Shown here: positions 8,961 through 63,863 of the stretch, one piece after another
Numbering within the stretch: position 1 is the first letter of the stretch
Layout: each line of letters opens with the position of its first letter
NCBI RefSeq assembly: GCF_026745355.1
Contig: NC_079206.1
Coordinates: 29,948,020 to 30,012,019 of the forward strand
Reading direction: 5' to 3'
Source: Beta vulgaris subsp. vulgaris
Lineage: Eukaryota; Streptophyta; Magnoliopsida; Caryophyllales; Amaranthaceae
DNA length: 64,000 bases
Translations under genes and position numbers: made by a program
The notes under the pieces: generated by a model
Seen by the model: only the letters and a program-made list of their open reading frames with translations
What the model was told of the DNA's origin: nothing
Databases searched by the model: none

Positions 8961-9096
8961 AAAATCGGGGCTTATACCCTTTTAGTCATCGATACTGTAC
9001 CCAATGGCCTTCTTATGAGTTTTCATAACAGTCAAAAGTTGGGAGAGTTGACTGTTATCTAGTGCAGCACTGATTATTAGAGGTTTTAACTCATGT

Positions 9097-9984: not shown

Positions 9985-9999
9985 AAACTTACCAAATTG

Positions 10000-13127: not shown

Positions 13128-14667
13128 TCTCTATTATATAAGGGAAGAAGGGAGCTATGGTGTCCTCTTTTGAACTGACTATTTTACCCCCCTTCCCTTT
13201 CTAAATTACAAAAGGAATCTCAAAATTAAAATCGGAACTCAAAAGATTGAAGGCTAAACCAAAATATATACTGATCATTACTTTCCTAAACTTTGAATAC
13301 CTTTTCAACGGTTCAAAATATAATTACAACTAAAACAAGGAAAATCTCCCTTATCATCACACCATTTTGATCAAAAGTTGAGTCAAAGGAGGATTTTGAG
13401 CAAATCTCAATCCGACAACATCGACAGAGGGCTTTTCCAAACATATGTCCCAGCAATTTTTGCCTCTTTCAATCGTTGTAATCTCTATTATATAAGGAAA
13501 GAGCAGCTACGGTGTCCTCTTTTGAACTGACTATTATGCCCCCCTTTCCTTTCTAAATTACAAAAGGAATCTCAAAATTAAAATCGGGACTCAAAAAAAC
13601 TACCGAAAATAAATTTAACACTAACTCACAAATCACTTAAAAGAAGAAACTTTACAAATCACTCATACAATTAAGAAAATCATGTTATAAAAATCACGCA
13701 AATCACTCAAATAATCAGAAAACTTTATTAAAACTTAAAATTAATATACAAAGTAAAACTAATAACCTAGAACGTCAATACATACAAAAACATTTACTAC
13801 AAAAATTTACTTACAAATCACTGTTCTCAAGAACTATTCACAATTACATACTCAGAAAAGTTACCTATAAACACAAATTTGAAAAAAGCATAAGATTTTG
13901 ACGGCGATATCGCACATTCATCCATCGACAATTTGTGAACTTCAAAAAAGGTACATAATTCTTTTAAACTTCAAAATTATTTCACATTGGTTGAAATAAA
14001 CAATAGCAAATTAGTTGACTGTTATGTAATTAAAAAAATGGAGATGACAACAATGAGTTCAAAAGGGCTTTTATACAATCAGACTTAAATTTAATTCATT
14101 TTCATATAAAACAAATTTAGTTTTTTTCAAAAAAAATGCCAATATTAAAATTTTTGCCCATAACTTTTGCAAAAAGTCCATGTTCAGAAATAAATTTTGA
14201 AAAACAAAACAATATCAAACTTTTTGCGAACAATTTTTGCAAAAATCCATTTTCAGAAAAAAAAAAACTAAATCAATTTGCGAAAAGTAACGATTTTTGT
14301 TTTTCTAAAAAAAAAATCCAATATCAAATTGTGTATGAAAAAATCAAAATTTCATTTCAATATAATTGAAGCTAAAGTGTTAAAATTTAGAAAAGGACAA
14401 AAATTGAAAGATGAAATTTTATAAATATCAATGTATGCACACATAATTTAGAAGTTAGACAAGGAAAAAATATTGAGGTGTATTTGTAGTGAAATCATAA
14501 TTTAGAAGTTAGACAAGGAAAAAAATTATTTACTTTTTCATAGTGTTTCCTATATATAATGAAACTTTTACATATATTTGGACCTATCTCTTTTATTATA
14601 TATGCGATTAATTATCAAGGTAAAAAGGTTTATGTAAAATATCATTCAAGAATTAAAGTACAACATA
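13128..14667 (+). mobile_element. Two Helitron-like 5' ends in tandem
   Basis: TCTCTATTATATAAGG occurs at 13128 and again at 13482, each preceded by A, and the next ~110 bp of the two copies are nearly identical (both contain GGTGTCCTCTTTTGAACTGAC). The second copy also resembles the complete Helitron at 14668 further in (shared GTCAATACATAC segment). I found no separate 3' hairpin/CTAG end for either, so they look like truncated or nested copies upstream of the complete one. The interval also has internal direct repeats, for example around 14441 and 14497. Confidence 0.6.
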
Positions 14668-15279
14668 TCTCTATTATATAAGGGAAGGGGGGCATGTTGT
14701 CCCGAATGAAATTTTACCCCTTTTTCCGTTAAAATTACAAATCCACTTACAAACCAAAGGGAGATTCAAATAAAAATATTGGAAATAAAATTATAATCAC
14801 TCACAAGTCAACTTAAATCATAGAATTGCATAATTTACATTATACAAATCACTCAAATGATAAAACTTTACAAAAACCAAAAAATTAACTTACAAACTAC
14901 AACCAATACACTACAACGTCAATACATACTCACAAAAATTTGACTTGAAATCCAAGTGTCCACTTTCTTCTCAATATTTGAAGTAGTGTACTTAATCTAA
15001 AAATCAACTAAAAAATTATAATATTAGAAATCATAGATAAATTCAATAAAATTTCTATTTTCCTCATAGAATTTTGACCTTGAAAAGTTTTTTTTTTTTA
15101 AAAAAAAAGACGGGTGAGAGACTTAAGTGACAGAGACTAAACCAATTAAATTTTGTAACTAAAAATAATTATATTTTGTATGTCTAATGTTCAAATTTTG
15201 ACTTTTACATAAGTTGAAAAAAACCGAGTTTCTATCTTGAAAAGAATTCAAGCACGCATCGCGTGCAAAAAAATACTAG
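14668..15279 (+). mobile_element. Non-autonomous Helitron (612 bp)
   Basis: It begins TCTCTATTATATAAGGG, ends with a GC-rich hairpin (GCACGC-AT-GCGTGC, 15252-15266) about 10 bp before a terminal CTAG, and sits between A (14667) and T (15280). These are the Helitron hallmarks: 5' TC, 3' CTRR with hairpin, insertion between A and T with no duplication. There is no Rep/helicase gene, so it would need a partner. A second copy of the family lies inverted at 32779-33363. Confidence 0.85.
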
Positions 15280-15280
15280 T

Positions 15281-15960
15281 ATACTATAAATGGAGGAGGA
15301 TTTCTGGAAGATTTATAGTTAAATGTGTCAGTTGATAATATGTGATGATTATGTTTTCATGTTATGGTGTGATGAAACATAGTTAGAAAAAAGAAAACGT
15401 GATGATCAGTGAAACACTAACATGATGCGTGCCACACATGCATGGTGCGTGCCGCGCACAATATTGCATGTGGCGCATGGTGCTGCATGCCACACACTGG
15501 TTGCCCACATCATTGCCTTTGCAAATCTTTTGTTGATCAGGAAGATTGGTGCGCCAACACCTGATTGTATAGTGACCCGCACCATACTGACGAGACACTT
15601 TGTCTCGTGAAATGATGCATGTCTCTTTGTGTCGAACGATGTATCATTTCAACATTTTCTTTTGTAAATATTTCCTAGTATATATAGGGAGATGTTATAT
15701 ATGGAATGGGGTTAGATTCATTCACATACATGCTTAAGGAGTTTTATTTCTAGACTTCTCTCCTTGTTCATTGTAAAACACAACCCTTCAAACACATTGT
15801 AATGTATGTAGTTTTTCATCAACCAAACTCCATAGTTTCTTCTTAGTATCTCATAAGAGTTTGTCGTGTAGCTCGTTGATCATTGTGGGTCGGTAAAATT
15901 ATTGTAGGAAAGAATATTACTACATGCTCGGAAGTACCATTTGGTTTCCCACAAGATACA
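15281..15960. repeat. Possible solo LTR or LTR fragment
   Basis: There is a TATATATAGG box at about 15680, then an R/U5-like stretch with a CATTGTAAAACACAACCC poly(A)-type region and an end at ...TTTCCCACA. An imperfect GTGCGTGCC/GCGCATGG-rich stretch at 15420-15500 may be its U3. No target-site duplication was found, so the limits are guesses. Confidence 0.3.
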
Positions 15961-17910: not shown

Positions 17911-17925
17911 TATATAAATATAAAT
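17911..17925 (+). promoter_or_regulatory. TATA box of the PSY-like gene
   Basis: TATATAAATATAAAT lies about 40-50 bp upstream of the start codon at 17963, giving a short leader if transcription starts about 30 bp downstream. Motif and position only. Confidence 0.6.
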
Positions 17926-17962: not shown

Positions 17963-20900
17963 ATGGAAAATAAAGCTTTTGTTCTCTTTGTTCTTGGATT
18001 TACTTTCGTTCATTGCGTTCTTTCGATTCCTGCTTCAAATCCCAGTAAGACTTACTAACTAGTTTCTACATACAAGTTCTCATCATCTAGCATTTTAGTT
18101 GATTGTTCTGTTCTACGGTATCTACAGGAAGTCTTAGAATAAGCAAGCAGTCATTAGTCCATGATTTACTTGCCGATACTCCCAAGGTTCGTTAACAGTC
18201 TCCTTTTATACAATTACCTTGTCTTTATGCATGTAATTTTTTCAGAAAGACATGTTTATAAAATTGGATGTGGGACGACTAAGGTTACCTTTTCCTTGTC
18301 TTCTGATAAACAATTGTGAAACTAAAACACACCTTCATATATGATAGGAGAGGTAGGTTCTTCTTTATCACAAAGCAAATAATTATTGTTTTCAGATCGG
18401 TATATCAATTGACTTTGAGATCTTATAGTGAATTTTCAAGGTTTTGGACCAGGGAAGTATGAAATCACACTTTTACAATATAAAAACATATGTAAAAATA
18501 TTTTCCTCGTATATATATCTTTTTTTTTTTTTTTAGGGGACTCGTATATATATCTTAAGAGTATCATTAATAGATTTGTTATATGAAAAACTAATATACC
18601 GTTTCTCTGGAAAAAATTATAACTCTTTATTTTGAATATAGATATTTATTCCCTCCGTCTCATGATATTGTTTGTTTTCTTTTTTGAGGTTAAAGTTTAA
18701 AATATTTGATCAAATATTCTCATTAATATATACAAAAATAAAAAAAATTACTCATATATGATCTTGTTAGGTTTGCCTTAATATGTACTTTCAAGATATC
18801 AACTTTTTTATTAATACGAAAATGAAGATTTTGAAGATCAAAGTTATATCTTAGAGACCGTGCAAAATAAAATAAATACTATATCATAGGACGGAGTGAG
18901 TAATAACTAAATAAAGCAAAATTTGATTAAAAACTTAATATTATGGAAAGATGTGATAACCAACTTGTGTTTTAAATTCTAATTGATCAAGATCTAAATT
19001 AGTATTTACATGTTCTGAATTTCGATTCATATCCCCTTGCAGATGTAGTTGTGAATCGTGAAAAATCAACTAGTTTTAAGCTGCTGAATTTCTTAATCTA
19101 CATTTAATAGGTTGCAATTGTGTCGATATTCGTTCTTTTCTCACTTTTAGTTTCTCCATTAATGCTACATTAAGAAGCATGTTACATTATCAGTTAGATG
19201 ATGAGGGAAGAAAAATTAGAAGATGAGTAACCAAAAATATTATTATATTGTTTCACTAGTAGAATAAATGCTTATTGCTTTATTGTTGCGGTTATTGAGT
19301 GGCCTATTGCAGCGATTTTGTCCGCGCAACAATTAAGGAGGCAGCAATATGTAATTATTATATGGAAAAATTGTTAGAAACTACCTATTAAAGACACTTT
19401 TTTAAAAAAAATACTACCTTATATCATGTTTATTTTACAAAACTACCTTATAAGCGGAAAAACTTTAAAAAGCACTACCAAATTCAGAATTTACTAACCA
19501 TGGTTAACTATTTCCTCAAATTATCATTCTAATATAAGATTACTAAACTACCCAACCCCTCTTTGCTAATTTCTCTCACAGGAGCGTTTAACTATTGAAT
19601 ACTCCCTTAAATCGTTTGTGTAATTTCTTCTCCAACCTTTTGCTTCACCAATTAATTCTTCATTATGAGTAACAAAAGCAGATAGAAATTGGGTTTTGGG
19701 TCATGAATTGATGTCGTTGATGATGATGAAGAATATGGTTTGATGATGGTGCAAAGCTTGCCCTACTAGACACTTTTACTGCTGGTTTGTTTTTGAATTT
19801 GACTTTTGGGGGAGAGAAGGTGTGCTTGTGCTTGCCACATGTATATTTAGAGATAGAGCATCAAGTGATCAAGAAAGTGATGATATCGTAATTGTAACGT
19901 ACTGAATTTAGGGGGTATTTTCATAATCTTATATTAGAGGGATAATTGGAGGGAGTAGTTAACCATAGTTAGAAAATTATGAATTTGGTAGTGCTTTTTA
20001 AAGTTTTTCCACTTATAAGGTAGTTTTGTAAAATAAACATGATATAAGGTAGTTTTTTTTAAAAAAGTGTTTTTAATAGGTAGTTTCTAACAATTTTTCC
20101 TTATTATATTGCTGCGGCGGTTTTAAACCGCAGTAATATTTGAACATATTGCTGCGGTTTCTGGGTAAAACCGCAGCAATATATATATTTTATATTAGAT
20201 TCATAAAGTATATTGTTGCGGTTTAATACCGCAACAATATGCTATATTTAATAATAAAAAATAGATATATTGTTGTGGTTTCTTGGGAAAACCGCAGTAA
20301 TAGGTACAGGTGTAATTAAATTCGAAAGATAAAAAAATTCAGAATAATAGCAAAAAAATCAGAAACTTCCACCAGAAAATGAAATGATATTAACAAAGAA
20401 AAAAATAATGATAAGAAAAATGAACAAAGTCGAAAACAATTATAAAAAAACTGAAAGAAAAAAATTTGAGATATACAAAAATTACAAGAAACTAGAATTA
20501 CACTACCTAAACAAAAGAGCAAAAAATCTGAAACAATAAAAACAAAAATAAAAATATGCAAGAATTCACATAATAGGAAGAATTAAAACTGTCATCCAAA
20601 TTCCAAGGTTATGCTAAAATGAAATTAACCTATTAAAAAAAAAAAAAAAAAAAAACTGAATCTAAAATTTATCTGGAACTTTAGGAACTTAGACATAGAG
20701 TATATTTTATTTAGAACTAGAATTTTTTTTTACATACCGAAATTTTTTTTTTCGGAAATCTCGAAGGTTCGAATTTTTTTTTCGGAAAATACATGGGCTC
20801 GGAATTTTTTTCGAATATTAAGTCCGAATTTTTTATTTATTCTCGAGTCAAAATTTTTATTTTTTTCCGAAAATTCAGAGGTTCAAATTTTTTTTTATTA

Positions 20901-23900
20901 CTCGAAATTTTTTTTCAGGCACTTAAGTAATATTATTTATAAAAGTGTCTGCATTATTTTTCATGCTTTTAAGGTTTATAGTATTGCATTGTGAGAATGG
21001 GTAGTATAGGAAGGACATATAAGATAGTAACATTATATCCTTGCATTAGAAAGTTAGTTCAGCATCATTATTATTTTTCTTCCCTGCAAATAGTACATAT
21101 TGTCATTTCTTCCTGTGATGATGATGCATTATATTATTATACTTTCATGCTATGATGCATGAATATTTTTCCTTCCTGCTAACTGTTTACATTTTCTTGT
21201 CTGTAAGTGTTATATGTCCAAACCTTTGTTTTTGTTTACCCTATTATTTTGTGAGAACACGTTAGAGAGTGCTAAACCACTATGGTTTATTGTGTTGTAG
21301 CTCTTCAATTATGGCTCATAACCTAGGAAGCTATTTTAACATTCTGAGCGACGATGAAGTCGACGAGTTACATGCACCTAACAACCATAGAGAGTATACA
21401 AATCTACACTGGACGATGCGATGCATCTTAAGAAGAGGGTTGCCTAGTGATGATGAGATGATATTAGAAATGGACCATACTCGAGGCACCACTAGGGAAG
21501 ATATCTACCATGCTTACTTCAGGTATGAATCGGAGACTGTACCTGAAGAAGATGAGGATATCATACTCATTAGAAGATCAAAAATACAAAGGAAATTCAT
21601 TGATTATGATGCGGATGGGGAAGAAGAGAATTTTGAAGATGCTACATTCCTGCCTAAACAGTATAAGGAAGCTGAGGATAAAGACAGCAATGTAGGGCCA
21701 TAGGTTTTATATATATACTTATATTTATTTATATATACAGATATACATAAGATATTAGTCATATAAATAATGTTGGAGTGTGCCAACAAGGACAAAGGAG
21801 TTTTATAGAGTTATTATTTTAGGAGAAATATAGATACTATAAATTTAAAAATAAAAATAATATAATAGTATTTATATTTTTCCTAAAATAATAACTCAAT
21901 AAAACACCTTTGTCCTTGTTGGCACACTCCAACATTATTCCTATGACTAATATCTTATGTATATCTGTATATATAAAAAAAAATATAAGTATATATATAT
22001 AACCTATGACACTACATTGCTGTCTTTATCCTCAGCTTCCTTATACTGGTAAGGCAGGAATGTATCATCATCAAAATCCTCTTCTTCCCCATCCGCATCA
22101 TAATCAATGAATTTCCTTTGTATCTTTGATCTTCTAATGTGTATGATATCCTCATCCTCTTCAGGTTCAGTCTCCGATTCATACCTGAAGTAAGCATGGT
22201 AGATATCTTCCCTAGTGGTGTCTCGAGCATAGTCCATTTCTAATATCATCTCATCATCACTAGGCAACCCTCTTCTTAAGATGCATCACATCGTCCAGTG
22301 TAGATTTGTATACTCTCTATGGTCGTTAGGTGCATGAAACTCGTCGACTTCATCGTCGCTTAAAATAATGGGGTTAAAATAGCTTCTTAGGTTATGAGCC
22401 ATAATTGAAGAGCTACAACACAATAAACCATAATGGTTTAACACTCTCTAACGTGTTCCCACAAAATAATAGGGGTAAACAAAAACAAAGACATGAACAG
22501 ATAACACTTGCAGGCAAGAAAATGTAAACAATTAGTAGGATGGAAAAATATTCATGCATCATAGCAGGAAAGCATAATAATATAATGCATCATCACAGGA
22601 TAAAATGACAATATATACTATTTGCAAGGAAGAAAAATAATAATAATGCTGAACTAACTTTCTAATGAAAGCATATAATGTTGCTATCTTATATGCCCTT
22701 CCTATACTACCCATTCTCACAATGCAATACTATAAACCTTAAAGGCATGAAAAATAATGCAGACACTTTTATAAATAATATTATTTAAGTGCCTGAAAAA
22801 AAAATCGAGTAATAAAAAAATTTTCGAACCTCTGAATTTTCGAAAAAAAATAAAAATTTCGACTCGAGAATAAAACACTTGCAGGCAAGAAAAAGTAATC
22901 AGTTAACAGGAAGGAAAAATATTCATGCATCATAGCAGGAAAGTATAATAATATAATGCATCATCACAGGAAGAAATGACAATATGTACTATTTGCAGGG
23001 AAGAAAAATAATAATGATGTTGAACTAACTTTCTAATGCAAGCATATAATGTTGCTATCTTATATGCCCTTCCTATACTACCCATTCTCACAATGCAATA
23101 CTATAAACCTTAAAGGCATGAAAAATAATGCAGACACTTTTATAAAAAATATTATTTAAGTGCCTGAAAAAAAAATCGAGTAATAAAAAAATTTTCGAAC
23201 CTCTGAATTTTCGAAAAAAAATAAAAATTTCGACTCGAGAATAAAACACTTGCAGGCAAGAAAAAGTAATCAGTTAACAGGAAGGAAAAATATTCATGCA
23301 TCATAGCAGGAAAGTATATAATATAATGCATCATCACAGGAAGAAATGACAATATGTACTATTTGCAGGGAAGAAAAATAATAATGATGTTGAACTAACT
23401 TTCTAATGCAAGCATATAATGTTGCTATCTTATATGCCCTTCCTATACTACCCATTCTCACAATGCAATACTATAAATCTTAAAAGCATGAAAAATATTG
23501 CAGACACTTTTATAAATAATATTACTTAACTGCCTGAAAAAAAATTTCGAGTAATAAAAAAATTTTCAAACCTCTGAATTTTCGGAAAAAAATAAAAATT
23601 TCGACTCGAGAATAAAAAAAATTCGGACTTAATATTCGAAAAAAAATTCCGAGCCCATATATTTTCCGAAAAAAAATTTCAAACCTTCAAGATTTTCCAA
23701 AATAAAAAATTTCGGTATATAAAAAAATTCTGGTTCCAAAAAAAATATACTCTATGTCTAAGTTTTCGAAATGAATACGTAGGAGCAATTCTATGGTTTC
23801 CTTCAAATAACTAATAAGCTAGCTAGCTAGTTAGACACCTATAAGTCTTAAAATAACCTAAAGCTCCCAGATAGTTAGTGTGCCGCAAAGTTTTTTTATA

Positions 23901-26900
23901 CTTAAAACGGCCTATATTGCTGTGTTTTTCTAGAAGAACCGCATCAATATATTAAAATAATATTTTTTTAATACTATTTTAATATATTGATGCGGTTTTT
24001 TCGAGAAACCGTAGCAATATGTTTGCTCAATTAGGCAAAAAAAATTCCGTCGAAACCATATTGCTGCGGTTTTCGGCCGAAACCGCAGCTATATGGTTAT
24101 TTTGTATTCTGTCTTTTCTTTTTACGGGACATATTGTTGCATATGGGTAAAATCGTAGCAATATCACCGTAGCAATAAGCAATTATTCTACTAGTGTTTA
24201 TGTTCAAAATGATAATTCATCAACGACGGATGTTGTTCCAAAACAATGTACAACATGTTGCAAAACAATATATGTCATGTTTTAAAACAATATACAACAA
24301 AAAAATAGGTGTTTTTACATTCAATAAAATCCTCCCAAAACCCTCTGCTTGCGCATGATAAGGTGAGTTGCTATCGTGCACTTTTATGTGAATGGGGAGG
24401 GAGAAGAAGACACCCACGTCGGTATATAGCACGCCGGTGGTGTAGGGGTCGATTACTTGAATAGACTTTGAGCAACAATCGATTGTTGGGCCAAGTAATA
24501 CTAAGAAATCGAATGACACAACAACCTACTCTGTTGATGTTGTTCCGATGACTGAGAAGGTTGTTACTCTGGCAGTGCAGGAGTTAACTCATAAGCATAG
24601 TGAGGAAGCTAGCTATAAATGGAAGACTTTTACTGGACAAACTCGTATGGCTGAGAAAGGTGTGGGTCTTAACTTTGTAGCTCCTACAATTTTAGAAGAG
24701 AAATCAATTGCTAAGTTGGATAAGCTGGAAACTTAAAGATTGAATGAGCAACGAAAAAATGCTATTATTCTTTGTGGTGGGTAAAAATTCAACAATTTTT
24801 CTATAGGTGGCTATATGAAATCTCAGTGGAGCCTAGTTCATGAACCCCATATGTTTGAACATGAAGAAGGCTATTTTATTATCAAATTAGGCTCTAAGGA
24901 AGATAGAGACTCAATCGTTTATGTTGGACCTCATTTGTTCTTTGGGTCACTCATGATTGTCAAACAATGGTCTGCTAGTTTTTATTTTCATAAAGGAGGT
25001 GTTGAAAGTGTTCCCTATATGGGTTAGGCTACATAACCTACCCCTACGATGTTGTAGTGCTAATTCACTCAGTAGAATAGGCAGTCTCCTTAGTGTGCCT
25101 ATTTATGTTGAAAAAAATACTACTAAATGGCTTAGGGTGTCTTTTGCTCCGATTTTAATTTAGATGGATGTGACTAATTAAAGAGGTGCCTAAGAATATC
25201 CAGATTGAAGATCCAAGTGATAAAATTTTCTCTCATAAAGTTGAGATTGGCTTCCTGCATCTCGTAACAAAATGTCTGGTGATTGGAAAAAACAGTGCAG
25301 TAATGTTAGTGCTCCTACTATTGATATTGGTGCCTGGTTATAGGTAAAAATAGTTCAAAGCGTATTTTTAAGCCTCATCATGATACTAGTGCTCCAGTTG
25401 ATATTGGTGCTCCTATTGTAACAGTAGACCCTAGTGTCACTAGTGATCCTTCCATAGTAGTAGAACAAAGTACAAAAGTAACACAGTGACTACTCCACTC
25501 ACTGCTCTTGAGCCTAGTCAAGTTGAAGTTTAAGAGGAACCATATAAAGTACTCACAAGGAAATCTAAGGGTAAATAGGTGGCTATTCACCATACTAGGA
25601 TGGTTAATTACATCATACAAAGTGCTCACCATGACCCGGTGAGGATTGGGGGTGCTAGGGATCCAATCCCTATTTGTCCTAATGAATTTCATTGCTTGGA
25701 CTGTTAGGGGTCTTAATTATCCTTTGAAAATAAAAGAAGCAAAATTGTTTCTTAATCAGCAGAAAGTGAATTTTTGTGCTCTTTTTGGAACTCGAGTGAG
25801 ACTTCCTAAAGCTTTAAAAGTTCAAGAAAGTCTGAAAATGTGTGGACTTGGGAGATTAATTATGATTTTTGTCCTATAGGTAGGATTTCGATAGGTTGGA
25901 AGCCATGAGAATTGAAGTTCATAACATTCTGGCAGAAGATCCTTGCTTCTAGATAAAGTGGTTATGGCTTGGAACTTCATTGACGCTCCTTATAAGTTTA
26001 AAAGTGTTTGACTTAAGCTTCAGGATCTTAAAAGAGCTCTGGAAAGCTTGCACAAGAATCATTATTCTTATGCCCACCTTAGGTTGATGATTATAGAAAT
26101 AATCTTGTTAATCCGCAAGTTTATGATGATCTTGTCAGTAATGAGGTGTAGCCTCTAGCTGAGGAGTGTATTAACAAGTTAAGGCATTATTCTAAAGTTG
26201 AGGAGAGTATTTTCAAGCAAAAGGCCAAAATTGATTGGTTATCTCAAGAAGATGCAAATACTAATGTCTTCTTCACAACTATGAAAGTTAGGAAAGCTAG
26301 GAATGTTATTACTACTTTGAAAAATAGTAATGGTGAGTTGTTAACTGCTAGAGAAGATATCCAACAAGAGATAATTGGGTTCTGTAAAAGTTTGATGGTT
26401 ACAAATGATATCTCCTCCCTTTTGTTTGATCTTAACACTACAAGATCAAGGAATACTTTGAGTAAGGAAGCTTGTGTTGCTTTGAGTCAACTAGTGACTC
26501 ATGAGGAGATGGAGAGAGATTTGTTTTTTTATTGCTGATTCAATAGATCCTTGATTGGATGGTGTTAATGTTGTGTTCTTCAAGAAGTTGTTGGGATGTT
26601 ATTAAGGTTGATGTCTGTGAACGTACACTAGTGGAAAAATGAAGAAGGGTTGCGCTAAAAAAGGCATGTAGGGCTGCGCTTTTTGACAGCAGCCCTTTCA
26701 GTAGCAGCCCTTCACTTTTTAAGTAGGGCTGCGCTAGAAAAGCGCAGCCCTTAAGCTAGAAGGGCTGCGCTAGTTAGGAAAAAGCGCAGCCCTTCTAGCC
26801 CAGAAGGGCTGCGCTAGTTAGGAAAAAGCGCGGCCCTTCTGGGCTAGAAGGGCTGCGCTTTTTCCTAACTAGCGCAGCCCTTCCTACCAAAAAAAAAAAT

Positions 26901-29900
26901 AAAAAAAAAAAATTTTTTTTGTCATTTTTTTACTCATAATCTCACATTTTCTGAAATTAAACAGAAAAGAAGAGAAACGAAACGAAAATACTAAACCCAA
27001 AACAATAAAAAGAATGAAACGAAAATGAAAAAAAGGAACAAAAACTAATATACAAAGAGAAGTATACAATAAGTATACAAGAAATATACAAGAACATTAA
27101 TCAAAACAAAGTTGAAAATACAAGAAATTATATACAAAGAGAAGTATACAAGAACATTAATCAAAATAAACAAAGAGAAGTATACAAGAATAACATTAAT
27201 CAAAATAAACAAAGAGAAGTATACAAGAACATTAATCAAAACAAAGAGAAGTATACAAGAACATTATAGATCTGAAAATACAAGAACTACAACCTAATAA
27301 TGTTTAAATACATAAAACAAAACCCAAATACATAATTTAAGGGAAAAAAAAATTCGAAAAAACTTAAAATGGGTATTTGGAGGCTTAAACGAACTCGGAT
27401 GGCTTAAAAAGCCTAAACATCACAGCTTAGCTGTGAGTTTGACTCGTTGGCTCGTTCCGCTTCCGAAAAGGTATCACAATAGGCAATCGGACTCCGTCGC
27501 CATGTTTAGTGCAAATCATTTCAAGGTTTTTGTCGCAAATGTTTATGGGAGTTTTTGAGAGAGAAGAGAGGATAAGAGAGAAGAGAGGATGAGAGAGAAG
27601 AGAGGAAAGGAATAATGAGGGACGTGAGAGAGGAGAAAGAATGAGGGATAATATATTTGACGAATCCCCGCTCAATATTTCAAAGCCCGCGATTCCGAAA
27701 TTTCAAATTTTTTCAGGAAGGGCTTAGGCAAGAAAATCCTCTTTCTCCTTTCCTCTTTGCCGTAAGTGTGGAAAATCTTATTAGGTGTCTTGTTGAGTTG
27801 AAGAAGAATCTAGATTTTAATTTTCATCATAAATGTGAGAGGATTCACCTTGCTCATCTAATGTTTGTTAATGACTTATTGCTTTTTACTAGAGTTGATC
27901 TTCGTTATGTTACTAAGATGATAGTTGTCTTTTAGAAATTCTCACCTGGATCAGTCTTTGAGGCTAGTATTTGTAAGAGTAACATCTATATTACTGTAGT
28001 TTTTTTTCGAAGGAATATTGCTAGAGTTGGTGTTGAAACTGCAATTCTGGCTGCTGCTGACCATGGTGAGTTGCTTATAAGTACTTGGAAGTTCCCCTCT
28101 CTTCCAAAAAGTAAAACTTCACTCATTTCAAAATGCTTATTGAAAAGACAACAGAATTAGCTCAGTCTTACGCTAGAAGGTTACAGATATAAAGTTCGGA
28201 GCATTTTAAGTAGTATGAAGAATAATTGGGTTCAAATTTTCCCTTTGCCCAAAAAAGTTTCTAAAGTTGTGTGCTTGTAGGAAGTTCATATGGGCTGACA
28301 TGAGTTTAGACTCAAAGAAGGCTCTTGTTGCTTGGGATAAGTTCTATAATCCTAAAGTAGATGGACATTGGAATTCGATTAACATGGAAATTTAGAATAA
28401 AGCAACTATCCTTAAGCTGATGTGGGCTTTAGCTTTCAACTAATAAGCTATGGGTTAAGTGGATTAATTCGTACTACTTGAGAAGAACTACTATTCAAAT
28501 GTTGCTATCAGTAGTAACATTTATTTCTTGGCAACTAAATTAGTAAAATTCTGAGCAACAAGAGATTGGAAGTTGGGAATTTGTGATGTATAATAGGAAA
28601 TCCAGTGTCAAAAAGCTTACTCTCTTTTGTAGGGGAGTGTTTAGAAGGTGTAATGGAGGATACTTGAAAGTAAGTTTGTTATGTGGATGGCTATTCAGAA
28701 CATATTGGTCACTTCTAATAGAGTTAGTAAATGGAATGCGGATTCTAGCTTGCTTCATGAACTATGTCAGCATGAGCATCGAAACACTCAACACTTGTTT
28801 TTTCAATGTTCTTATGCTAATGAAGTTTGGGAGACTATTCATGCTAACATCAAGCTTAGCATTCAGAAGAGAACTTTTTCATATGAATGTAGGAAAGCTA
28901 ATATAAAAGCTCATGGAAAAAGCAGGTCCTCTAGATTTTATGGAGTTTATGTGATGCATTTCACGGAAAAGTTTATGCTATTAGAATCAAAGGAACAACA
29001 AAGTGTTTGATAACATTTGTGTTCCCTGCGAGGTAATTTTTAGAGTGGCTTGTGAATGCAATTATGCAGAAAGAGCATTACTTGTATACCGACTAGTTGT
29101 TTGTTTGTTGTTTTGGGTTGTTAGCCTCAGTGTAGTTGGTTTTGTGATGCCTCTATGTAGGCTTGGGTGTTTTGCCTTTGTAGGCTTCTGGGTGTTTTGC
29201 CTTTGTGTAGGGTTCTGGGTGTTTGTTAGATGTTTTTACTCTGTACATTTTTGTAGTTGACAAATTCAAAGTTGTTAAAACAACGTACAACATGTTCTAA
29301 TTTACAAATTCAAAGGTGTAGGCTTCTAGGTGTTTGTTAGAAAAGAACATACAACTTGTTTTAATTTACATAAGAAAATTTGTTATTTACAGTCGTGTCA
29401 TTAATGTTGTATGGCCAATCTAGATCGTTAGAACCAGCCTAATCCAATAGCCTATATCTATTCTTTCCCATTTTTACCAGATCCTGCCCCTTTATGCATG
29501 TAACAATTTTAGTTAGAGTCACTTCTCACCTAGAGTCACAACACTTCTCACATAGAATCACAAGTCACAACCATAAAAAAGTTAGTCACAATTTTTATAA
29601 AAGGTTAGAGTCACAACTTTTTTTTTAAAAGGTTAGAGTCACAACTTTTTTTAAAAAAAAAGGTTAGAGTCACAACACTTCTTACTTAGAGTCGCCACAA
29701 CATTTTAATTCTCACGTGAAGATGCATTCTCAAGTAATTTTTTATCTAATGTTAAATTCGTTCAATTTTCTTGTTAGTTAACTTGCATTCTCAAGAATGA
29801 TGTATTGTGTTTCTCACTCTCATGAATTTTTATACACTTTTTTAATCATTGTTTTAATTTATACTCACCTTATTCCTGATCATCCTAATATGTGTTTTAA

Positions 29901-32197
29901 TGAGAAATGAATCAACTAAAAAGAAACACAATACATCATTCTTGTGTTTCTTAAAAATTGCAACAAATTAAAGCTTCCACCCTTGCCAACAGACAATTTT
30001 ATATGTCCTTCGTTCCATCTTCTCTAAAAAAGCTTTTGTATAAAAGAGAGAAGTGTTTCACTTATTATGAAACAAAGGAAGTATTTTCTATTGCTTAGTA
30101 ATAAATTAGACCAATTCTAGTAGTATCTTACATTATAATATTGGTTTACATGTAATAAATGAAATTTTGTTATAAACTAGAATTAGAAGAATGCAAAAGT
30201 CAAAATTTTGAGATTACAAGGAAATAGAGGAAGTACTTTAATGGTCAAAGGGGTGCTTTAATACAATTTGTCGAAGGTTTTCTATGTGAATGGCTTTTTT
30301 TTCAAAGAAGACGGTTGGTTATTTTTGTGTTTTTCATCTGTGTCTTTTATGTATATGAATATGGTTTTGAATTATTTGGTGCCACAAGACGATTTTTAGA
30401 TGATTATCTATACGCAATGGGAAAGAATTAAAAGAAATTTCGACAACACAAAAGTAAAAACTAAGGGCCAATTCGTTATCATTTTTTGTTTTTAGTTTTC
30501 AATTTTTTTGAAAACTAAAAACCAAAAACAAGAAACCAGAAAAAGTGATTTTCACTTTTTAGTTGTCAGTTTTCAAAATCATCATGTTCTCAATAAATTT
30601 CACTAATTTTTTATTCATTATAAGATACTCCCTCCGTCCCAAAATATAGTTCCCATTTCTATTTTGGGAGTCAAATTTTAAAAACTTTGACCAAATATTC
30701 TTACTAATGTATACAAAAAAAATATATTCATGAGGGGTCTTGTTAGATTCGTCTTAATGTATAAATTCGTAATATCAACTTTCTATATTTTTTACTAATA
30801 AGAAATAGAAGATATCGTAGGTCAAAGATACGTCTTGGACACTGCGCAAAATGAAACGGGAACTATATTTTGGAACGGAGGGAGTATATATCATATGACT
30901 TTGAAAATAAAAAAAATCAAAAAACAGAAAACCATAGTAATATTGCACGGGCCCTAAAAAGACAATTTTTTCATTTTTGACTGTTGCCAGTCTTTTTTGT
31001 TTCTCAACTTCTATGCGTTGACCATGGCCATTTTTTAAAAAGGATTATGAACATTATTTCACTGAAATATGATAAATAACTAATGAATAGTCCACTTTCA
31101 AGGAATTAAATGGAAAAAAAAAGTTGGAGGTTTTAGGAAAAATTGGAAAAGAATTATCTCTCCTCCCTCTTTTGCCTCTTCTTTAAAATCGCTTAGTCAA
31201 TCATCATCTCCTATCTTAAAGCCTGTTCTTTTCGGCATAAAACAACTGAATTGAACTGAATTGAATTGAATTGAATTGAATTGAATTGAACTAAACTGAA
31301 AAAAATAGTGATATGTAAGAGTAAAACTATTGTCCAGAGATGAACTGAACTGAACTGAATTGAACTAAATTTAACTGAATTTAACAGAACTGAACTGAAA
31401 ATAAGCTGTTGAGAACATGCCCTTATTTTGTCTCTTCTTTAAGATCTCCTAGTCATATGTTCTCTCCTTTTCAATAATCTGGACCTAGTTATTCTGTCCC
31501 TATATGTGAAAAATTACGGCACTTTAGATTTGTTATTATTGTTGTGAGAAATATGGAAAGAGAGAAGCTATATATTAGAGTGTATTGTATTCGTATTGAT
31601 GTGTAAACTGATTTCTTACATCGATGGTATTTATAAGCAAAAATTTTCTACTATGCACAATTGTAATTCAACGACAGCGTGTCGTTTGAAGAAAATTTAC
31701 CTGACATGCATTAAATGCATGCAAGAAATGTGGACTTCACATAGACGTGAACAGTGAAAATTTTCATTCCACAGTTTCTCAACAATTATTTCTAGAATTG
31801 ATGAACATCTATCTCTATTTAAATAAATAGTTATTTGCAAAATAAAGTGGAATTGGCACTACCATGTTCACAAGTTTTACTCGTCAAGAGGCCAAGTAAC
31901 TTTCTTTCTCCATGTAGAAAGAACCGCACAAATCGTATAGACGGAATTTTATTCAAAATTTGAGAAATAAACTTTTTAATAATAGTTATGTTAATACAAT
32001 CTTACATACATCGCAATTCGTATTATTGCACACAATACTTGCAGGATATCAATTTTAAAGAGGACCACGAAGATGTTTCAATGTTTGAATTGGAAAGTCA
32101 AGGAACAAAAGAAACATCCATTTATATTGATGACTATCCACCACCCGGAGCTAGCAAGGGCCATGATCCACCTCCCCCACCCATCGGCAGTCACTGA
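17963..32197 (+). CDS. PSY: PSY-like secreted tyrosine-sulfated peptide precursor (three exons)
   Basis: Model: exon 1 17963-18044, exon 2 18128-18186, exon 3 32045-32197; 97 residues. Splice sites are CCCA|GTAAGA, TCTACAG|GAAG, AAG|GTTCGT and TTGCAG|GATATC; the frame is open through both joins (phases 1 and 0). Residues 1-24 form a signal peptide with hydrophobic core AFVLFVLGFTFVHCVLS. A variable acidic middle follows, and the C-terminus carries IDDYPPPGASKGHDP then a proline run. That segment aligns without gaps to the PSY consensus: DY, Pro 5, Ala 7 and HDP conserved. Known PSY peptides are sulfated on this Tyr by Golgi TPST, trimmed, secreted and sensed by LRR receptor kinases to tune growth versus stress. 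The gene is inferred from sequence only. The 13.9-kb intron 2 is unusual and may reduce or prevent expression. An alternative is that exons 1-2 and exon 3 are separated relics, but preserved phase and motif argue against that. Confidence 0.72.
18045..18127 (+). other. Intron 1 of the PSY-like gene (83 bp)
   Basis: GTAAGA donor, T-rich body and TCTACAG acceptor; the length is typical of a small plant intron. Confidence 0.7.
18649..18900. mobile_element. Stowaway MITE (Tc1/mariner), 252 bp
   Basis: The ends are inverted repeats of the CTCCCTCCGTC type (left TTCCCTCCGTCTCATGATAT; right, reversed, CTCACTCCGTCCTATGATAT), flanked by TA on both sides. Non-coding. Confidence 0.88.
19364..20100. mobile_element. 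Mutator-like element with ~190-bp terminal inverted repeats (737 bp)
   Basis: The left end GGAAAAATTGTTAGAAACTA is repeated inverted at the right end, and similarity continues for about 190 bp. A perfect 9-bp duplication TTATTATAT flanks it (19355-19363 and 20101-20109). Long inverted repeats plus a 9-bp duplication define Mutator-like elements. The centre is about 350 bp with no recognised gene. It lies inside the CACTA sub-terminal region, so it is younger. Confidence 0.9.
20634..20656. repeat. Poly(A) run
   Basis: About 20 A in a row just outside the left palindrome arm. Confidence 0.9.
21311..21703 (+). CDS. Unrecognised acidic ORF in the CACTA left arm
   Basis: Open from ATG 21311 (MAHNLGSYFNILSDDEVDE) to a stop at 21703, 130 residues; an upstream ATG at 21269 is possible but its first 14 residues are not conserved in the inverted copy. 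It is strongly acidic (DDEVDEL, EEDEDI, DYDADGEEENFED), with a basic RRSKIQRK patch. I do not recognise a family. A TTGTAG splice-acceptor-like site just before 21301 suggests it could be one exon of a gene taken up by the element. The inverted copy at 22004-22400 is the same gene with a stop. Codon-level conservation between the copies, including many identical residues, means recent duplication rather than proven function. Confidence 0.4.
   Translation: MAHNLGSYFNILSDDEVDELHAPNNHREYTNLHWTMRCILRRGLPSDDEMILEMDHTRGTTREDIYHAYFRYESETVPEEDEDIILIRRSKIQRKFIDYDADGEEENFEDATFLPKQYKEAEDKDSNVGP
22004..22400 (-). pseudogene. Inverted, broken copy of the acidic ORF
   Basis: Starts MAHNLRSYFNPI at 22400 on the minus strand. 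It has a 9-bp insertion or difference near ILSDDEVDE and an in-frame stop in place of the Arg codon after LHWTM, then is open from 22267 to 22004. It differs from the plus copy at scattered residues. Confidence 0.6.
22505..23617. repeat. Three tandem 371-bp units in the right palindrome arm
   Basis: CACTTGCAGGCAAGAAAA starts at 22505, 22876 and 23247, an exact 371-bp spacing; the GACTCGAGAAT edge recurs at 22861, 23232 and 23603. Units 2 and 3 are almost identical, unit 1 is more diverged, which suggests stepwise unequal exchange. Confidence 0.9.
24197..24480. other. Unassigned sequence between CACTA and LINE
   Basis: Contains short repeats of an AACAATGTACAACATGTT type that recur at about 29280-29360 on the far side of the LINE. 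No gene. Confidence 0.4.
24481..26625 (+). pseudogene. L1 LINE, 5' part: ORF1 (DUF4283-like) and start of ORF2 endonuclease
   Basis: ORF1 remnants at 24548-25170 carry the plant-LINE RNA-binding domain pattern: GYFIIKLGSKEDRDSI, then VGPHLFFGSLMIVKQW, then in another frame VRLHNLPLRC. ORF2 begins about 25680: MNFIAWTVRGLNYPLKIKEA is the endonuclease start, and the nearby LxETKV-type motif reads FGTRV, so the catalytic Glu seems to be Gly. The stretch to 26540 is the ORF2 linker (FFTTMKVRKARNVI, NGELLTAREDI). Stops and frameshifts are numerous. The reading is broken at 26626 by a CACTA element and resumes at 27718. Confidence 0.75.
26626..27717. mobile_element. Truncated CACTA element (left end intact, right end lost)
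   Basis: Starts CACTAGTGGAAAAATGAAG, with the family's sub-terminal GGGCTGCGC/GCGCAGCCC palindromic units (26640-26885), A-rich middle, and ~30-bp AAGAGAAGTATACAAGAACA repeats (27052-27260). It is over 85% like the complete copy at 52395-54317 by eye. At 27715 it passes directly into LINE reverse transcriptase at the shared word GAAGGGCT, so the right terminal palindromes and the CTAGTG end are missing. Confidence 0.85.
27718..29260 (+). pseudogene. L1 LINE, 3' part: reverse transcriptase and zf-RVT domain
   Basis: Begins GLRQENPLSPFLFAVSVE (the usual GLRQGDPLSP motif) and has HLMFVNDLLLFTR in place of the catalytic FADDLLLF, so one of the two Asp is replaced by Asn. Next come thumb-like segments (WSQVFPLPKK-type) across stops, then at 28681-28860 the zf-RVT domain (AIQNILVTSNRVSKWN, HLFFQCSYANEVWETI). 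The 3' end near 29260 has no clear poly(A) tail. The part between the ORF2 linker and the GLRQ motif, normally over 150 codons, is missing where the CACTA sits. Confidence 0.75.
29507..29710. repeat. Minisatellite of GGTTAGAGTCACAAC units
   Basis: Units of about 20-35 bp with a common GTTAGAGTCACAACTTTTTTT core recur at least five times with variable T/A runs. Confidence 0.8.
30475..30954. mobile_element. PIF/Harbinger-type (Tourist-like) MITE
   Basis: Ends GGGCCAATTCG... and ...TGCACGGGCCC, with subterminal TTTTTAGTTTTC / GAAAACCATAG complementarity, flanked by TAA (30472-30474 and 30955-30957). The 3-bp TAA duplication is typical of PIF. It contains a Stowaway at 30628-30884. Confidence 0.65.
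30628..30884. mobile_element. Stowaway MITE nested in the PIF MITE (257 bp)
   Basis: CTCCCTCCGTCCCAAAATAT at the left is perfectly mirrored at the right for at least 12 bp (ACGGAGGGAG end), with TA on each side (30626-30627 and 30885-30886). Confidence 0.92.
31221..31420. mobile_element. Short MITE with (TTGAA)n core
   Basis: Ends GCCTGTTCTTTTCGGC and, reversed at the right, GCATGTTCTCAACAGC; the interior is two arrays of TTGAA/CTGAA pentamers (31247-31300 and 31341-31398). No clear duplication, so superfamily is uncertain, perhaps hAT. Confidence 0.5.
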
Positions 32198-32258: not shown

Positions 32259-32778
32259 TGATTATTGTAAAAAACTCATATGAATAGGATGCACACTAAT
32301 TAGTGTGCACCCAATAGATATTATGTAGGCTGTTATGACTACAACTTCTATTATTTTGTCTTTCTCTCTCCTCATATTTCCTCGCCTTTTCAGTTTTTCT
32401 TTCATAAATGCTTCATTTTCTCTCTCTTCAAGCTTTCACTATGTTTTTTTTAGTTTTTTTTGATATTGTTGATTGTACAATTGAACATGTTATAGAAGAT
32501 TAAAATTATATTGTCAGTTTCGATATATTGTGTTTATGTGTGGTATATTGTGTTTCTCTGTGCTATAGTATGTTTATTGCGATAGTGTTTCTTTCTGTTA
32601 TAATGTGTTTGTGATATAGTGTATTTCATTTTGATATAGTATATTTGTTTGTGATATATAGTGTGTTTCTGTGTAACATAGTTGATTGTACAATTGAACC
32701 AGTTATATAATATTAGGATAATATCGTCAGTTTCAAAATAGTGTGTTTGTATGTGTTATAGTGTGTTTTTATGTGGTA

Positions 32779-33363
32779 CTAGAATTTTTTGCACGCGATG
32801 CGTGCTTGAATTTTTTTCGAAACAGAAACTCGATTTTCTTTGGCATAAGAGTCAAAATTTGAATATTAGACATACAAAGTATAATTGTTTTTAGTTGCAA
32901 AATTTGATTGGTTTAGTTTATGTCACTTAAGTCTCTCACCATTCTTTTTTTTTTTTTTTTTTTTTTTTAACTTTTCAAAGTTAAATTCTATGAACAAAAT
33001 AGAAATTTTATTGAATTTATTTGTTATAATTTTTTAGTTGATTTTTGAATTAAGTACAATACTTCATAAATTGTAAAGAAAGTGGACACTTTGATTTCAA
33101 GTCAATTTTTTCCTAGGTTGTAGTTTGTAAGTGAATTTTTAAGTTTTTATAAAGTTTCTTTATTTTAGTGATTTGCATTACGTAAATTATGCAATTTTAT
33201 GATTTTATTTGACTTGTGAGTGATTGTTATAATTATATTTTTGGTATTTTTGTTTGAAGACCCCTTTGATTTGTAAGTGAAATTGTAATTTAGAATGGGA
33301 AGGGCAAAATAGGCATTTCAAAAGATGGACATCATTGTTTCCCCTTCCCTTGTATAATAGAGA
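32779..33363 (-). mobile_element. Non-autonomous Helitron, minus strand (585 bp)
   Basis: Reverse of the element at 14668-15279: the top strand starts A|CTAG, then the hairpin GCACGC-GAT-GCGTGC, and ends ...TTGTATAATAGAGA|T. The interior aligns along its length to the other copy. It sits between A and T and splits a minisatellite, so it is younger than the array. Confidence 0.85.
32945..32968. repeat. Poly(T) run
   Basis: Uninterrupted T run of about 24 bp inside the Helitron. Confidence 0.9.
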
Positions 33364-33540
33364 TAATTTTTTTTGGCAAGAGTTATAGTGTTTCTTTGTG
33401 TTATAGTGTATTTGTTAATGATATAGTGTATTGATCTCTTATATAGTGTTTATGTTTGTGATATAGTGGATTTATATGTATTATAGTAGTGTGTGTCCCC
33501 ACTCATGTGCGTGAGCCTGGTGCACACTAATTTTACTGTG

Positions 33541-36603: not shown

Positions 36604-38537
36604 GTTACCTAATCTCTTTTTTCCGCCGATGATATTGTTTTAGTGGAAGCAAGTGTAAACCAACCTCAGGTGGTGCATGAGTGCCGCCAAAGATTTTGCT
36701 TAGTCTCGGGTCAAAAAATCAGCCTGCCAAAATCGAAGTTTTCTTCTCCAAGAATGTTCACATGAATGAACAAATGGAAATCAGTGAGGCTCTAAACATT
36801 GAGGCAACTAATGAGCTAGGGATGTACCTTGGAATGTCGACTATTACAACTAGTGACCATAAGCTTGTGGGTTAGATGACCAAATATTTGTCTCTAGCGG
36901 GTCGTATTACTCTTGCTAAATATACTTTGTCAATAATGGCTAATTATTCAATGCAAACTGAGAAGCTCCCAAGAATGGTTTTGATGATGTGGATCAGAGA
37001 GTGAGGAGATGTTCATATCCTCGCTTGGGAGACTCACCAAAAGCCTCAAAATCAGGATGGTCTTGTTATCCCTTCGGCATGGCAGTCGAATGTCGCGTTC
37101 TTGACAAAGCTGGGTTCACACATCCTCATTAAACAAAATTCCTTATTTTGGGATCAAGGCATGTCGAATGATATTGTAAAGGGAGATACAACATTTATAG
37201 GTTTACTCCCAATCAAGGCATGTCGAATGATTGGAAGGGTATTATTGAGAATGCTAAGGTTCTATGTGAAGGGATGCAGGTAGCTGTGAGTAATGGCCTG
37301 CGAACTTTATTTTGGGATCATAAGTGAGAAACTGAAACCTCTCTCTCCAACTTAGCAACTCAAGCTAAACCTGATGAATTTTTAGATGCTAGAGTCAGCA
37401 ATATGCTGGACTCTTTGCAAGGATGGGAATCAGAGTCGTTTATCGAATACTTACCTCCTGATGCTTTGGAGCAAATTCAATCTTTTGAATTCAAGGAGAA
37501 TCAAGAGATTGGAGACCTTTTATATTGGAGCTCGGGTAAGAAGAAGAAGTGTTCTATTAAATCTTCTCTTAGCATTATGCGAAATATAAGTGACTCAGTA
37601 GATGACGAGTGTTGGAATCTAATCTGGACTATTCCAATCCAACAACACATCCGAGCATTACTGTGGATGGCATGCCATAGTAGAATCCTTGGGAATTTGA
37701 TGAGATTTAAGCATAAGATGAATGAGGATACTACATGCTATATTTGTGGGGCGGAGGAAGAATCAACCCTACACATCCTTATGAATTGTCCAACATCCCG
37801 TATGATTAAGTCCATGCTAGGGGGCACTCTGTATATTTAAAACACCAAAATAAAGAAGGATATCCTATATGGGCTACCCTTTTCTGCATATCTAGTTGGT
37901 GGATTTGGAGATGGCATAATAGTATTACGTTCAATTTGGAAAAAATCAAGATGTTCTGCAAGATATTGGAGGCTTTATTCATGTGAGATATAATATCGTG
38001 ATATTGAGAAGAATGCATGTCTTAGGCCAAGAGATGCACATTCAAGTGAGAAGGTGGAGTTGGGAGTAATTTGGACACATCCGCCCATGTAGTGGTATGC
38101 ACTAAACTCATCACATGGTGTTGCTAAGGGCGCCCCAGGTCCAACGGGTGTTGGGGTAATGTTGAAGGATCATTCTGGCTGTCTCACCTCATCACTCTCA
38201 TTGCACTTTGGTTACTGTAATGCTTTCAACGATATATTTATGGCGCTGACTAAGGGGTTAAAGCTTGCTTTTGAGCTACAAATTAGCAAGTTGATAGTAC
38301 AACTGGATAATCTTGTCTGTATACAATTGCTCCAAGAACAAGAAGCGTGTAGAAAAATATGCACTCATATGATAAATCACTCCATACATCTGATTTAACA
38401 AGAGGATTGGGAAGTGCGGGTTATACATGTGTATCTAGAAGGAAATCGAGCTGCAGATTAGCTTGCCAATCACAGAATTACTCAACTCCTCCGTACCACC
38501 ATTTACTCTTCTGCACTTGCTTAGCTTAGCTCCTTTA
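36604..38537 (+). pseudogene. Second L1 LINE: reverse transcriptase C-terminal part, zf-RVT and RNase H
   Basis: Resumes just after the CACTA with the catalytic motif as FSADDIVLVEA (both Asp kept), followed by LVSGQKISLPKSKVFFS-type palm/thumb sequence. The zf-RVT domain is open at 37403-37840 (HIRALLWMACHSRIL, CYICGAEEESTLHILMNCP). A plant LINE RNase H domain follows at about 38090-38480: GVMLKDHSGCL, ALTKGLKLAFELQISKLIVQLDN and NRAAD. Stops at about 36870, 37325, 38396 and 38459 kill the frame. The copia element at 38538 splits the tail. Confidence 0.8.
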
Positions 38538-39163
38538 TGCTGGATATTTAGAGTATCGGGGTATTGATTTTTATGCTTCGTTAAGTTAAGTCACATAGGA
38601 TAAGGTGTCGTGACTTGAAGTAACGTTTGTATTAGAGTTGACTAATGTACGTAATACAATACTGAAAGAGCGTTCCCTCGGGTATGGAGGGCTCGCACGA
38701 AATCGGCAGGAATTCGAGAAAAAGCAGCAAAGGAAGAATCGGGAGAAGGAGCGCTCGCTCCTTGGAGTAGCGCTAGCTCCCCTGGCCCCGTGTTGTTTAT
38801 TTGTCTTTTGCGGTTTCTCGAAATGACGGTTATTGATATGTTTTGCTTCATTTAAACGTTGCAAAGGCTCTAATGGATCATATGCTTGATATGTGAATGA
38901 AAATAAACCAGAGAAAACTCTCTCAAAGTTCCAGAGCACAAAGTTTCATTCATAGCTACAAATTCTTTCTTTCTTACTCTCATTTGACGAATTTCATAAC
39001 AAGCGTGATCTTCGTTGTTCTTCTTTGTATCTCGGAAGTGAATTCCTTGTAACCCTTGCTCAGTGTAGGGTAGGAATATGATTTGGGAAAGTGTCCCAAC
39101 ACGCCTAGAAGATTCAAAGTTCATCTAGTAATCATCTTTGTCACCCTATTTCCATTTCTAACA
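38538..39163 (+). repeat. 5' LTR of copia-1
   Basis: TGCTGGATATTTAGAG ... CCATTTCTAACA, 626 bp, matching the 3' LTR with only scattered differences. The leader after it is just 24 bp before the gag ATG at 39188, and I see no TGGTATCAGAGC-type primer site. Confidence 0.92.
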
Positions 39164-39187
39164 ATCAAAAAGCAATATCACTTTAAG

Positions 39188-40030
39188 ATGGCTACAGTTC
39201 GTGAGATGACTTCGAATTTTCAGAAACGTGATAAGTTTGAAGGTGTGGGTTTCCGTAGATGGCAGAAGAAGATGCACGTTCTTCTCACTTCTCTTTCGGT
39301 TGCATATGTCTTGAGTACTCCAAACCCGAGTTTGTGGAAGAAGAAACGTTGGAGGCATCAAGGAGAAGGATCAAGTGGGAGAACGATGATTATATATATG
39401 CCATGGTCACATTCTCAACGGTGTGTTTGACACTTTGTTTGATGTTTATTAATTCTATGCATCTGCTAAAATACTTTGAGATGACCTTAAGTCAAAATAC
39501 ATGGCCGAAGATGCATCTAGTAAGAAGTTCTTACTTTAATAACTTTAAGATGATTGAAACTAGGCCTGTGATGGAACAATTCCATGAAATCCAAAGGATT
39601 TTAGGAAGCTTTAAACAACACAATATTAGTATGGATGAGACATTTCTTGTATCTTCAATAATTGACAAATTACCACCAAGTTGGAAAGATGTTAGGAATA
39701 CTCTTAAACATAGAAAAGATGATATAAATGTGGACCAATTGGGTGCTCATCTTCGGATTTAAGAGGGCATTCAGGTTCAAGATGGACAAAAGGAGGTAAA
39801 TCCTAATTCCTCTACCACTAACGTGGTGGAGGATGGAAAGTCCAATGACTCAAATCCTAAGAAGAGGGCTAACAACTACACCAAAGGCAACATTTTGAAG
39901 AAGCCTAAGAATGGTGGAGTTGGTCAACAACGTGGTTGTTGGGAGTGTGGCAAACCCAGACACTTCAAGAACGATTGCTTCTTTTGGAAGAAGAAGATGA
40001 ACAAAAGAAATGAGCAAGGTGGAGGGAAAG
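39188..40030 (+). pseudogene. Copia-1 gag with CCHC zinc knuckle
   Basis: Starts MATVREMTSNFQKRDKFEG at 39188; the frame shifts near 39270 into the frame of 39259, and stops at 39762 before resuming at 39823. The middle has the UBN2-type gag pattern (QFHEIQRILGSFKQH, IIDKLPPSWKDVRNTL). CWECGKPRHFKNDC at about 39939 is an intact CCHC knuckle for RNA binding. Confidence 0.85.
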
Positions 40031-40560
40031 GCGAGTCTAGCCAATCCCAAGCCAAACAAGGTACTTGTGCACAACTTTCATGTAATTCGGGTTTGAATTA
40101 TATGTGTATGATTTCTGAAATCTTTTGTGTACAGGATGATTGTTCATGGTATATCGATTCGGGAGCTTCAAGGCATGTATGCAAGGAGCGGTCTTTATTC
40201 AAAACCTTCAAGGAGGTGGACAATGGAGAAGTTCTATACATGGGCAATGACTCTAGATCAAGTTCTTGGTGTAGGACAAGTAGAGTTAGTCTTTAGTTCC
40301 GGAAAATCTCTAGTGTTGAGAGATGTTGTATTTGCTCCGGAACTTAGGCGTAATCTAGTGTCTGGAGCTATCTTGAATCGTATAGGTTTTAAAATGGTTT
40401 TTGAGTCAGACAAGCTTATATTATCTAGGGGTGGTTTATTTATTGGACTTGGTTATTTATGTAATGGTATGTTTAAACTTAGCATTTCAAATGCTTTAGT
40501 GAACAATGTGTGTGTTATTAATGACAATTCTTCTCTTTAGCATTTAAGACTTGGTCATGT
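40031..40560 (+). pseudogene. Copia-1 protease
   Basis: CSWYIDSGASRHVCKE near 40141 carries the intact DSGA active site. After a frameshift near 40220 the segment MTLDQVLGVGQVELVF continues, then VVFAPELRRNLVSGAIL, up to the gag-pre-integrase region (HLRLGHVNYRNLYSM) at about 40540. Confidence 0.8.
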
Positions 40561-43502: not shown

Positions 43503-43516
43503 AAATGGGGGAGGAT
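43503..43516 (+). other. Polypurine tract of copia-1
   Basis: AAATGGGGGAGGAT abuts the 3' LTR start. Confidence 0.75.
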
Positions 43517-45534: not shown

Positions 45535-45547
45535 TTCCCCCTTTCTG
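45535..45547 (-). other. Polypurine tract of copia-2
   Basis: Minus-strand AGAAAGGGGGAA beside the LTR; primes plus-strand synthesis. Confidence 0.7.
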
Positions 45548-49609: not shown

Positions 49610-49631
49610 TTTAATTTATGTCGTTTGATTT

Positions 49632-63846: not shown

Positions 63847-63863
63847 TAAATCACCAAGCTACA

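Follow-up and report, generated by a model that had tools for sequence, protein, structure and literature searches.

Do two small exons and a third lying 13.9 kb further on, beyond a tract of transposons, belong to one sugar beet gene, and if so, what might that gene produce? We analyzed a 64-kb stretch of Beta vulgaris DNA (the window) for which a preliminary description had claimed that three exons join into a precursor of a PSY-type sulfated peptide. We consider it likely that the locus is a sugar-beet host gene for the secreted precursor of a PSY-like peptide, a reading suggested by its exon structure, an N-terminal hydrophobic stretch, an RSLR site, and, at the C-terminus, a DY...HDP motif whose score is that of a PSY motif.

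The three exons (Table 1) do join in phase as described, giving a 97-residue precursor with GT..AG borders at both introns. The expectation that no host gene would be called here did not hold, as existing annotation has BVRB_5g125400 / LOC125497514 at this place. A search of ~5.8 billion proteins returned an identical 97-residue protein, the Beta vulgaris hypothetical protein BVRB_5g125400, together with isoforms X1, X2, and X4 of uncharacterized protein LOC125497514, which map exactly to the window. All four database proteins could be rebuilt letter for letter from window exons, and the first two exons and the last exon are common to all four records. From the isoform numbering, our guess is that the 97-residue form is X3, which is absent from the listing. 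The precursor had no Pfam match and no solved-structure match at E up to 10, and Rfam gave no match in the window at gathering scores. No mention of LOC125497514 together with Beta vulgaris was found in open-licence full texts, the scope of a search that leaves subscription papers outside, and no beet PSY study was evident from the titles and abstract starts of the matches listed for sugar beet and sulfated peptides among open-licence texts. The gene is real and apparently unstudied. It is flanked on both sides by a 76% inverted repeat (14666-15281 and 32777-33365).

Table 1. Features of the PSY-like gene and of the elements within its second intron (window coordinates; a point marks features given no strand).
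Feature	Position	Strand	Details
TATA-like sequence TATATAAATA	17911..17920	+	~42 bp upstream of ATG; spotted by eye
Exon 1, coding part	17963..18044	+	start codon, hydrophobic signal-peptide-like stretch, first base of Arg28 codon
Intron 1	18045..18127	+	83 bp, GT..AG
Exon 2	18128..18186	+	rest of Arg28 codon, then codes SLRISKQSLVHDLLADTPK
Intron 2	18187..32044	+	13,858 bp, GT..AG, full of transposons
Stowaway-like MITE	18648..18902	+	CTCCCTCCGT-type ends; 71% match to 30626-30886
CACTA-type DNA transposon	19254..24196	.	4,943 bp, inverted ends CACTAGTAGAATAA, TTT on either flank
Near-palindrome in CACTA element	20690..23057	.	arms 20690-21845, 21859-23057; 1043/1138 aligned positions identical
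Decayed L1-type LINE	24309..29257	+	ends approximate; DUF4283 and zf-RVT matches, many stops
Isoform X4 cassette exon	24560..24659	+	100 nt; exact match to X4 record (P0004)
Second CACTAGTGG-type element, nested in LINE	26626..27715	.	right end approximate; related copy 52395-54052
Isoform X1 cassette exon	28000..28065	+	66 nt; exact match to annotated isoform record (P0002)
Isoform X2 cassette exon	28027..28065	+	39 nt; exact match to annotated isoform record (P0003)
Stowaway-like MITE, second	30626..30887	+	match to 18648-18902
Exon 3 with stop codon	32045..32197	+	acidic spacer, PSY-like motif, proline-rich tail
PSY-like motif DYPPPGASKGHDP	32132..32170	+	precursor residues 77-89

The motif DYPPPGASKGHDP is present once in the six frames of the window, where base composition predicts ~4e-6 matches to DY..P.A...HDP, and that pattern appeared in none of 60 first-order Markov sequences. 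Scored on a matrix built from 20 published PSY motifs (RaxX kept outside the training set, background frequencies being assumed values), it reached 27.1 bits, inside the range of 22.8-43.5 bits that the 20 motifs gave when each was left out in turn. TaPSY7, which is shorter and needs a gap to align, was left out of the motif matrices, as were RGF motifs of any length other than 13 residues or given incompletely. The beet score was reached by none of 400,000 random DY-11mers, and the motif topped the 58,313 stop-free 13-mers of the window, the runner-up standing at 14.7 bits; a second PSY motif, looked for across the window, was not found.

By score, then, the PSY-type C-terminal motif of the preliminary description stands, but by pattern it does so only in part. 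The motif agrees with DYXXXX[AP]NXXHXP, as given in excerpts of two reports (PMC7913133; PMC11641228), at D1, Y2, A7, H11, and P13, and D12 is also intact, but it has Ser in place of Asn at position 8. Because of this replacement we call the beet gene PSY-like and not a strict member. Excerpts of the family literature count Arabidopsis PSY9, which has Asp8 and no Asn8 (PMC11534595), and soybean GmPSY-XSP4, which is without His11 and Pro13 (PMC9369194), as PSY genes, so single motif residues are not absolute. Length and motif placement are those of the family: at 97 residues with the motif at 77-89, the precursor lies within the 60-200 residues, motif in the second half, that the excerpt of PMC7913133 sets out. 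Its N-terminal stretch, a putative signal peptide, has a hydropathy of 2.68 (149 relatives have a median of 2.85), and its hydrophobic start was matched by 11 of 10,000 shuffled precursors. We think that the beet peptide would work like a PSY. Ser8 and the tail PPPPPIGSH bear out the earlier suggestion of a divergent variant, which the gene may be whether it is a paralogue or a diverged orthologue; no other Caryophyllales species appeared by name among the matches listed in the profile searches (120 of 831 in the second).

The same departures could mark a decaying PSY gene, in which the transposon load, the lost Asn8, and the lost KTPG-type tail reflect relaxed constraint and the hormone is inactive. 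Asn8 is carried by 162/162 listed relatives and Ser8 by none, a count in which the later relatives are 120 of 831 matches listed and relatives without Asn8 are under-sampled, since 18/20 rows of the first profile query carry Asn8 and the second query consisted of Asn8 proteins. On an earlier N-terminal profile (76/82 relatives passing length and motif filters), the beet precursor reached 29.9 bits, whereas 13 relatives, each withheld once from the profile, gave 49.6-96.2 bits; as a lone query in the protein search it matched just its own four records. Against decay, the reading frame, the GT..AG borders, the hydrophobic start, and all of D1, Y2, A7, H11, D12, and P13 are intact, and PSY9 and GmPSY-XSP4 are counted in the family despite the departures noted above. 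We judge decay unlikely, though it is the most serious competitor of a working PSY-like gene.

A different concern is that exons 1-2 and exon 3 are different genes or transposon-carried gene fragments, and that the annotation joins them in error through the long splice. The two parts lie 13.9 kb apart, the exon 2 donor (AAG/GTTCGT) is weak-looking, and the annotation might be computed without reads across the junction. Yet each side matches its own end of PSY precursors. Exon 1 is similar to PSY precursor N-termini, and its open frame ranks first of 1126 window frames on an N-terminus profile of 77 relatives, at 12.1 bits with the next at 9.9. These relatives were the new ones from a beet-free search (77/80 passing length and motif filters), which was built from 14 matches of the beet-containing search and so is not fully independent; in that beet-containing search, E 1e-3 was reached by 2/82 relatives only. 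Residues 1-76 scored 19.6 bits on the profile, a value reached by 0/2000 shuffles, and again by 0/2000 when residues 1-21 were kept and the rest shuffled. Exons 1-2 alone scored 17.3 bits (0/2000 shuffles), and keeping residues 1-21 while shuffling 22-47 reached that score once in 2000. Without the start, residues 22-76 gave 6.1 bits (4/2000 shuffles as high) and residues 22-47 gave 3.9 bits (10/2000). The hydrophobic start supplies much of the N-terminal signal, which is weak without it.

Relatives also vary at the place where the beet exons meet. In the soybean-type record pairs P0030/P0043 and P0054/P0048, extra residues directly follow QD(L/H)LAK (VQDLLAK or VQDHLAK), the paired records being otherwise alike, except that P0054 is extended at its N-terminus. 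In beet, HDLLADTPK precedes intron 2, and the isoforms gain residues at this same joint. The simplest reading of the soybean-type variation would be alternative models around an old intron there. Wheat PSY genes are described as having two exons in some cases and three introns in others (excerpt of PMC11641228), and tobacco PSY genes as having three introns in 8/9 and two in one (excerpt of PMC12153210). Because exons 1-2, taken by themselves, look like the N-termini of PSY precursors and the motif fits PSY, the long splice most likely unites two halves of one PSY-like gene, as first claimed; with the in-phase join and the first two and last exons shared by all isoform records also weighing against separate genes, an artefactual splice is very improbable. 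Membership of another sulfated-peptide family, RGF/GLV or CIF, is barely credible in spite of the DY start held in common: ten such motifs (five RGF/CLEL, five CIF/TWS) scored <=5.3 bits on the PSY matrix, and the beet motif, at 27.1 bits as a PSY, gave 4.8 bits on an RGF matrix (five members left out in turn, 14.7-36.8) and -1.1 bits on a CIF matrix of first 13 residues (four CIFs left out in turn, 18.1-22.1; TWS1, -2.4). The comparison of exon 3 with PSY families that had been proposed places its motif with PSY, far above RGF and CIF motifs.

Intron 2 is as rich in transposons as had been claimed, a CACTA element, a LINE, and two MITEs making up 0.751 of its length (the LINE ends are approximate), and it is probably an old intron position enlarged by transposon insertion. 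The left-hand MITE has CTCCCTCCGT-type ends, and we take both MITEs to be Stowaway-like. The CACTA element has both hallmarks of its type, namely CACTA inverted ends, identical over 14 bp, and a 3-bp target duplication; two open stretches from it had no Pfam match. Within it, the near-palindrome, with arms of ~1.2 kb, overlaps a 371-bp unit present three times in tandem (22503-23617), and a transcript of the near-palindrome could fold into a long hairpin. Also nested in the CACTA element is a segment at 19356-20108 with inverted arms of ~198 bp, 91% identical. In the LINE, 3/10 pieces were above Pfam cut-offs, and DUF4283 precedes zf-RVT, an order of an ORF1-type domain and zf-RVT associated with plant LINEs. 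A putative reverse-transcriptase core, GLRQENPLSPFLF, was recognised by eye, the tested piece having no Pfam match. The element nested in the LINE and its related copy both begin CACTAGTGG and contain many AGAAGGGCTGCGCTTTT-type repeats in both orientations.

Elsewhere, the window holds two Copia-type elements, one on the plus strand (38538-44144; direct repeats of ~630 bp, 95% identical) and one on the minus strand (45250-49880; a 465-residue open frame, and direct repeats of 249 bp that are 96% identical). Decayed LTR-retrotransposon coding sequence occupies 4800-9999 on the minus strand, with RNase H above cut-off and weak Athila ORF1 and protease matches under it. A zf-RVT (LINE-type) stretch on the plus strand and a retrotransposon gag on the minus strand lie at 37328-37840 and 62824-63858, respectively, and a 206-residue open frame (54931-55551, plus strand) had no Pfam match above cut-off.

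The annotated isoforms include exons from inside the transposon tract, which were absent from the preliminary description and are new here. The X4 exon adds 33 residues and shifts the frame, so that in exon 3 the reading frame ends with GYQF and the product lacks the PSY motif. It sits in an open stretch (24461-24733) with no Pfam match of its own; because this stretch shares its frame with the first DUF4283 piece and lies ~125 bp upstream of it, we infer that the X4 exon is of LINE origin. The X1/X2 exon falls inside the LINE and uses another frame; on one side of it is the zf-RVT domain, on the other a stretch that by eye looks like reverse transcriptase. X1 and X2 keep the PSY frame and motif, and their spacers are longer by 22 or 13 residues. 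Taken as annotated, these models point to two parts of the transposon tract as possible cassette exons. If the isoform models rest on reads, exon choice determines hormone production, which is the most interesting, unproven point of the locus. In a more far-reaching version, the intronic retrotransposon would be a hormone switch, a secreted protein lacking the hormone being made when 24560-24659 is included and hormone being made when it is skipped, while a second transposon-derived exon would alter the pro-region and the Ser8 peptide could have changed receptor preference in beets; we regard this version as improbable.

If the beet gene behaves as its family does, the precursor would enter the secretory pathway, TPST would sulfate the tyrosine, and subtilases would free a peptide starting at DY. 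The peptide would then act on PSYR-type receptors and repress PSYR signalling, favoring growth over stress response. This processing and receptor model is set out in excerpts of two reports (PMC7913133; PMC10519359), the second of which also describes PSY peptides as setting the balance of growth and stress response. RSLR, at residues 28-31, is the sole RxLx-type site of the beet precursor and is of the type reported for subtilase SBT6.1; RxL[KR] within residues 16-55 was found in 58/162 relatives only. Of the two cassette segments, one would lengthen the spacer and the other would remove the hormone. In Arabidopsis, according to an excerpt of PMC10241880, genes are transcribed through heterochromatic transposons, in which the IBM2/EDM2 pathway suppresses premature termination; by analogy, the beet gene may rely on IBM2/EDM2-type machinery, which is a conjecture. 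With a crop hormone exon that can be joined only by splicing over or through transposons, one could ask whether transposon chromatin adjusts how much peptide hormone is produced. Ser8 likewise makes the beet motif a natural test of the need for Asn8, and scans demanding Asn8 would overlook genes of this kind.

Among known systems, the beet precursor shares its layout with PSY8-like precursors (DYPGTGANNHHDPKTPGRA type): a hydrophobic start, an RSL-type stretch, a (S)VQDLLAQ-like stretch, an acidic spacer, and, close to the C-terminus, a DY motif containing Ala7 and HDP. The PSY8 label is based on one record named 'like AT3G47510' and a review table in the excerpt of PMC11534595. Beet differs from this type in Ser8 for Asn8, Pro-Pro at positions 4-5, Lys-Gly at 9-10, and a tail that in the relatives is of the K(T/S)PG type. 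Arabidopsis PSY9 and PSY7, compared by motif alone, each have 8/13 identities with beet, and PSY9 is likewise without Asn8, whereas both have Pro7 in place of the beet Ala7. The nearest of the 26 motifs compared is that of RaxX of Xanthomonas, a bacterial PSY mimic, with 10/13 identities and prolines following; RaxX is bacterial and has Asn8, and so short a likeness is no proof of common descent. For the intron, the closest parallel is with the Arabidopsis IBM2/EDM2-dependent genes, whose introns hold heterochromatic transposons and whose full-length RNA needs IBM2/EDM2. As the excerpt of PMC10241880 presents them, these resemble the beet gene, at the level of sequence, in being host genes with long intronic transposons and transposon-containing isoforms.
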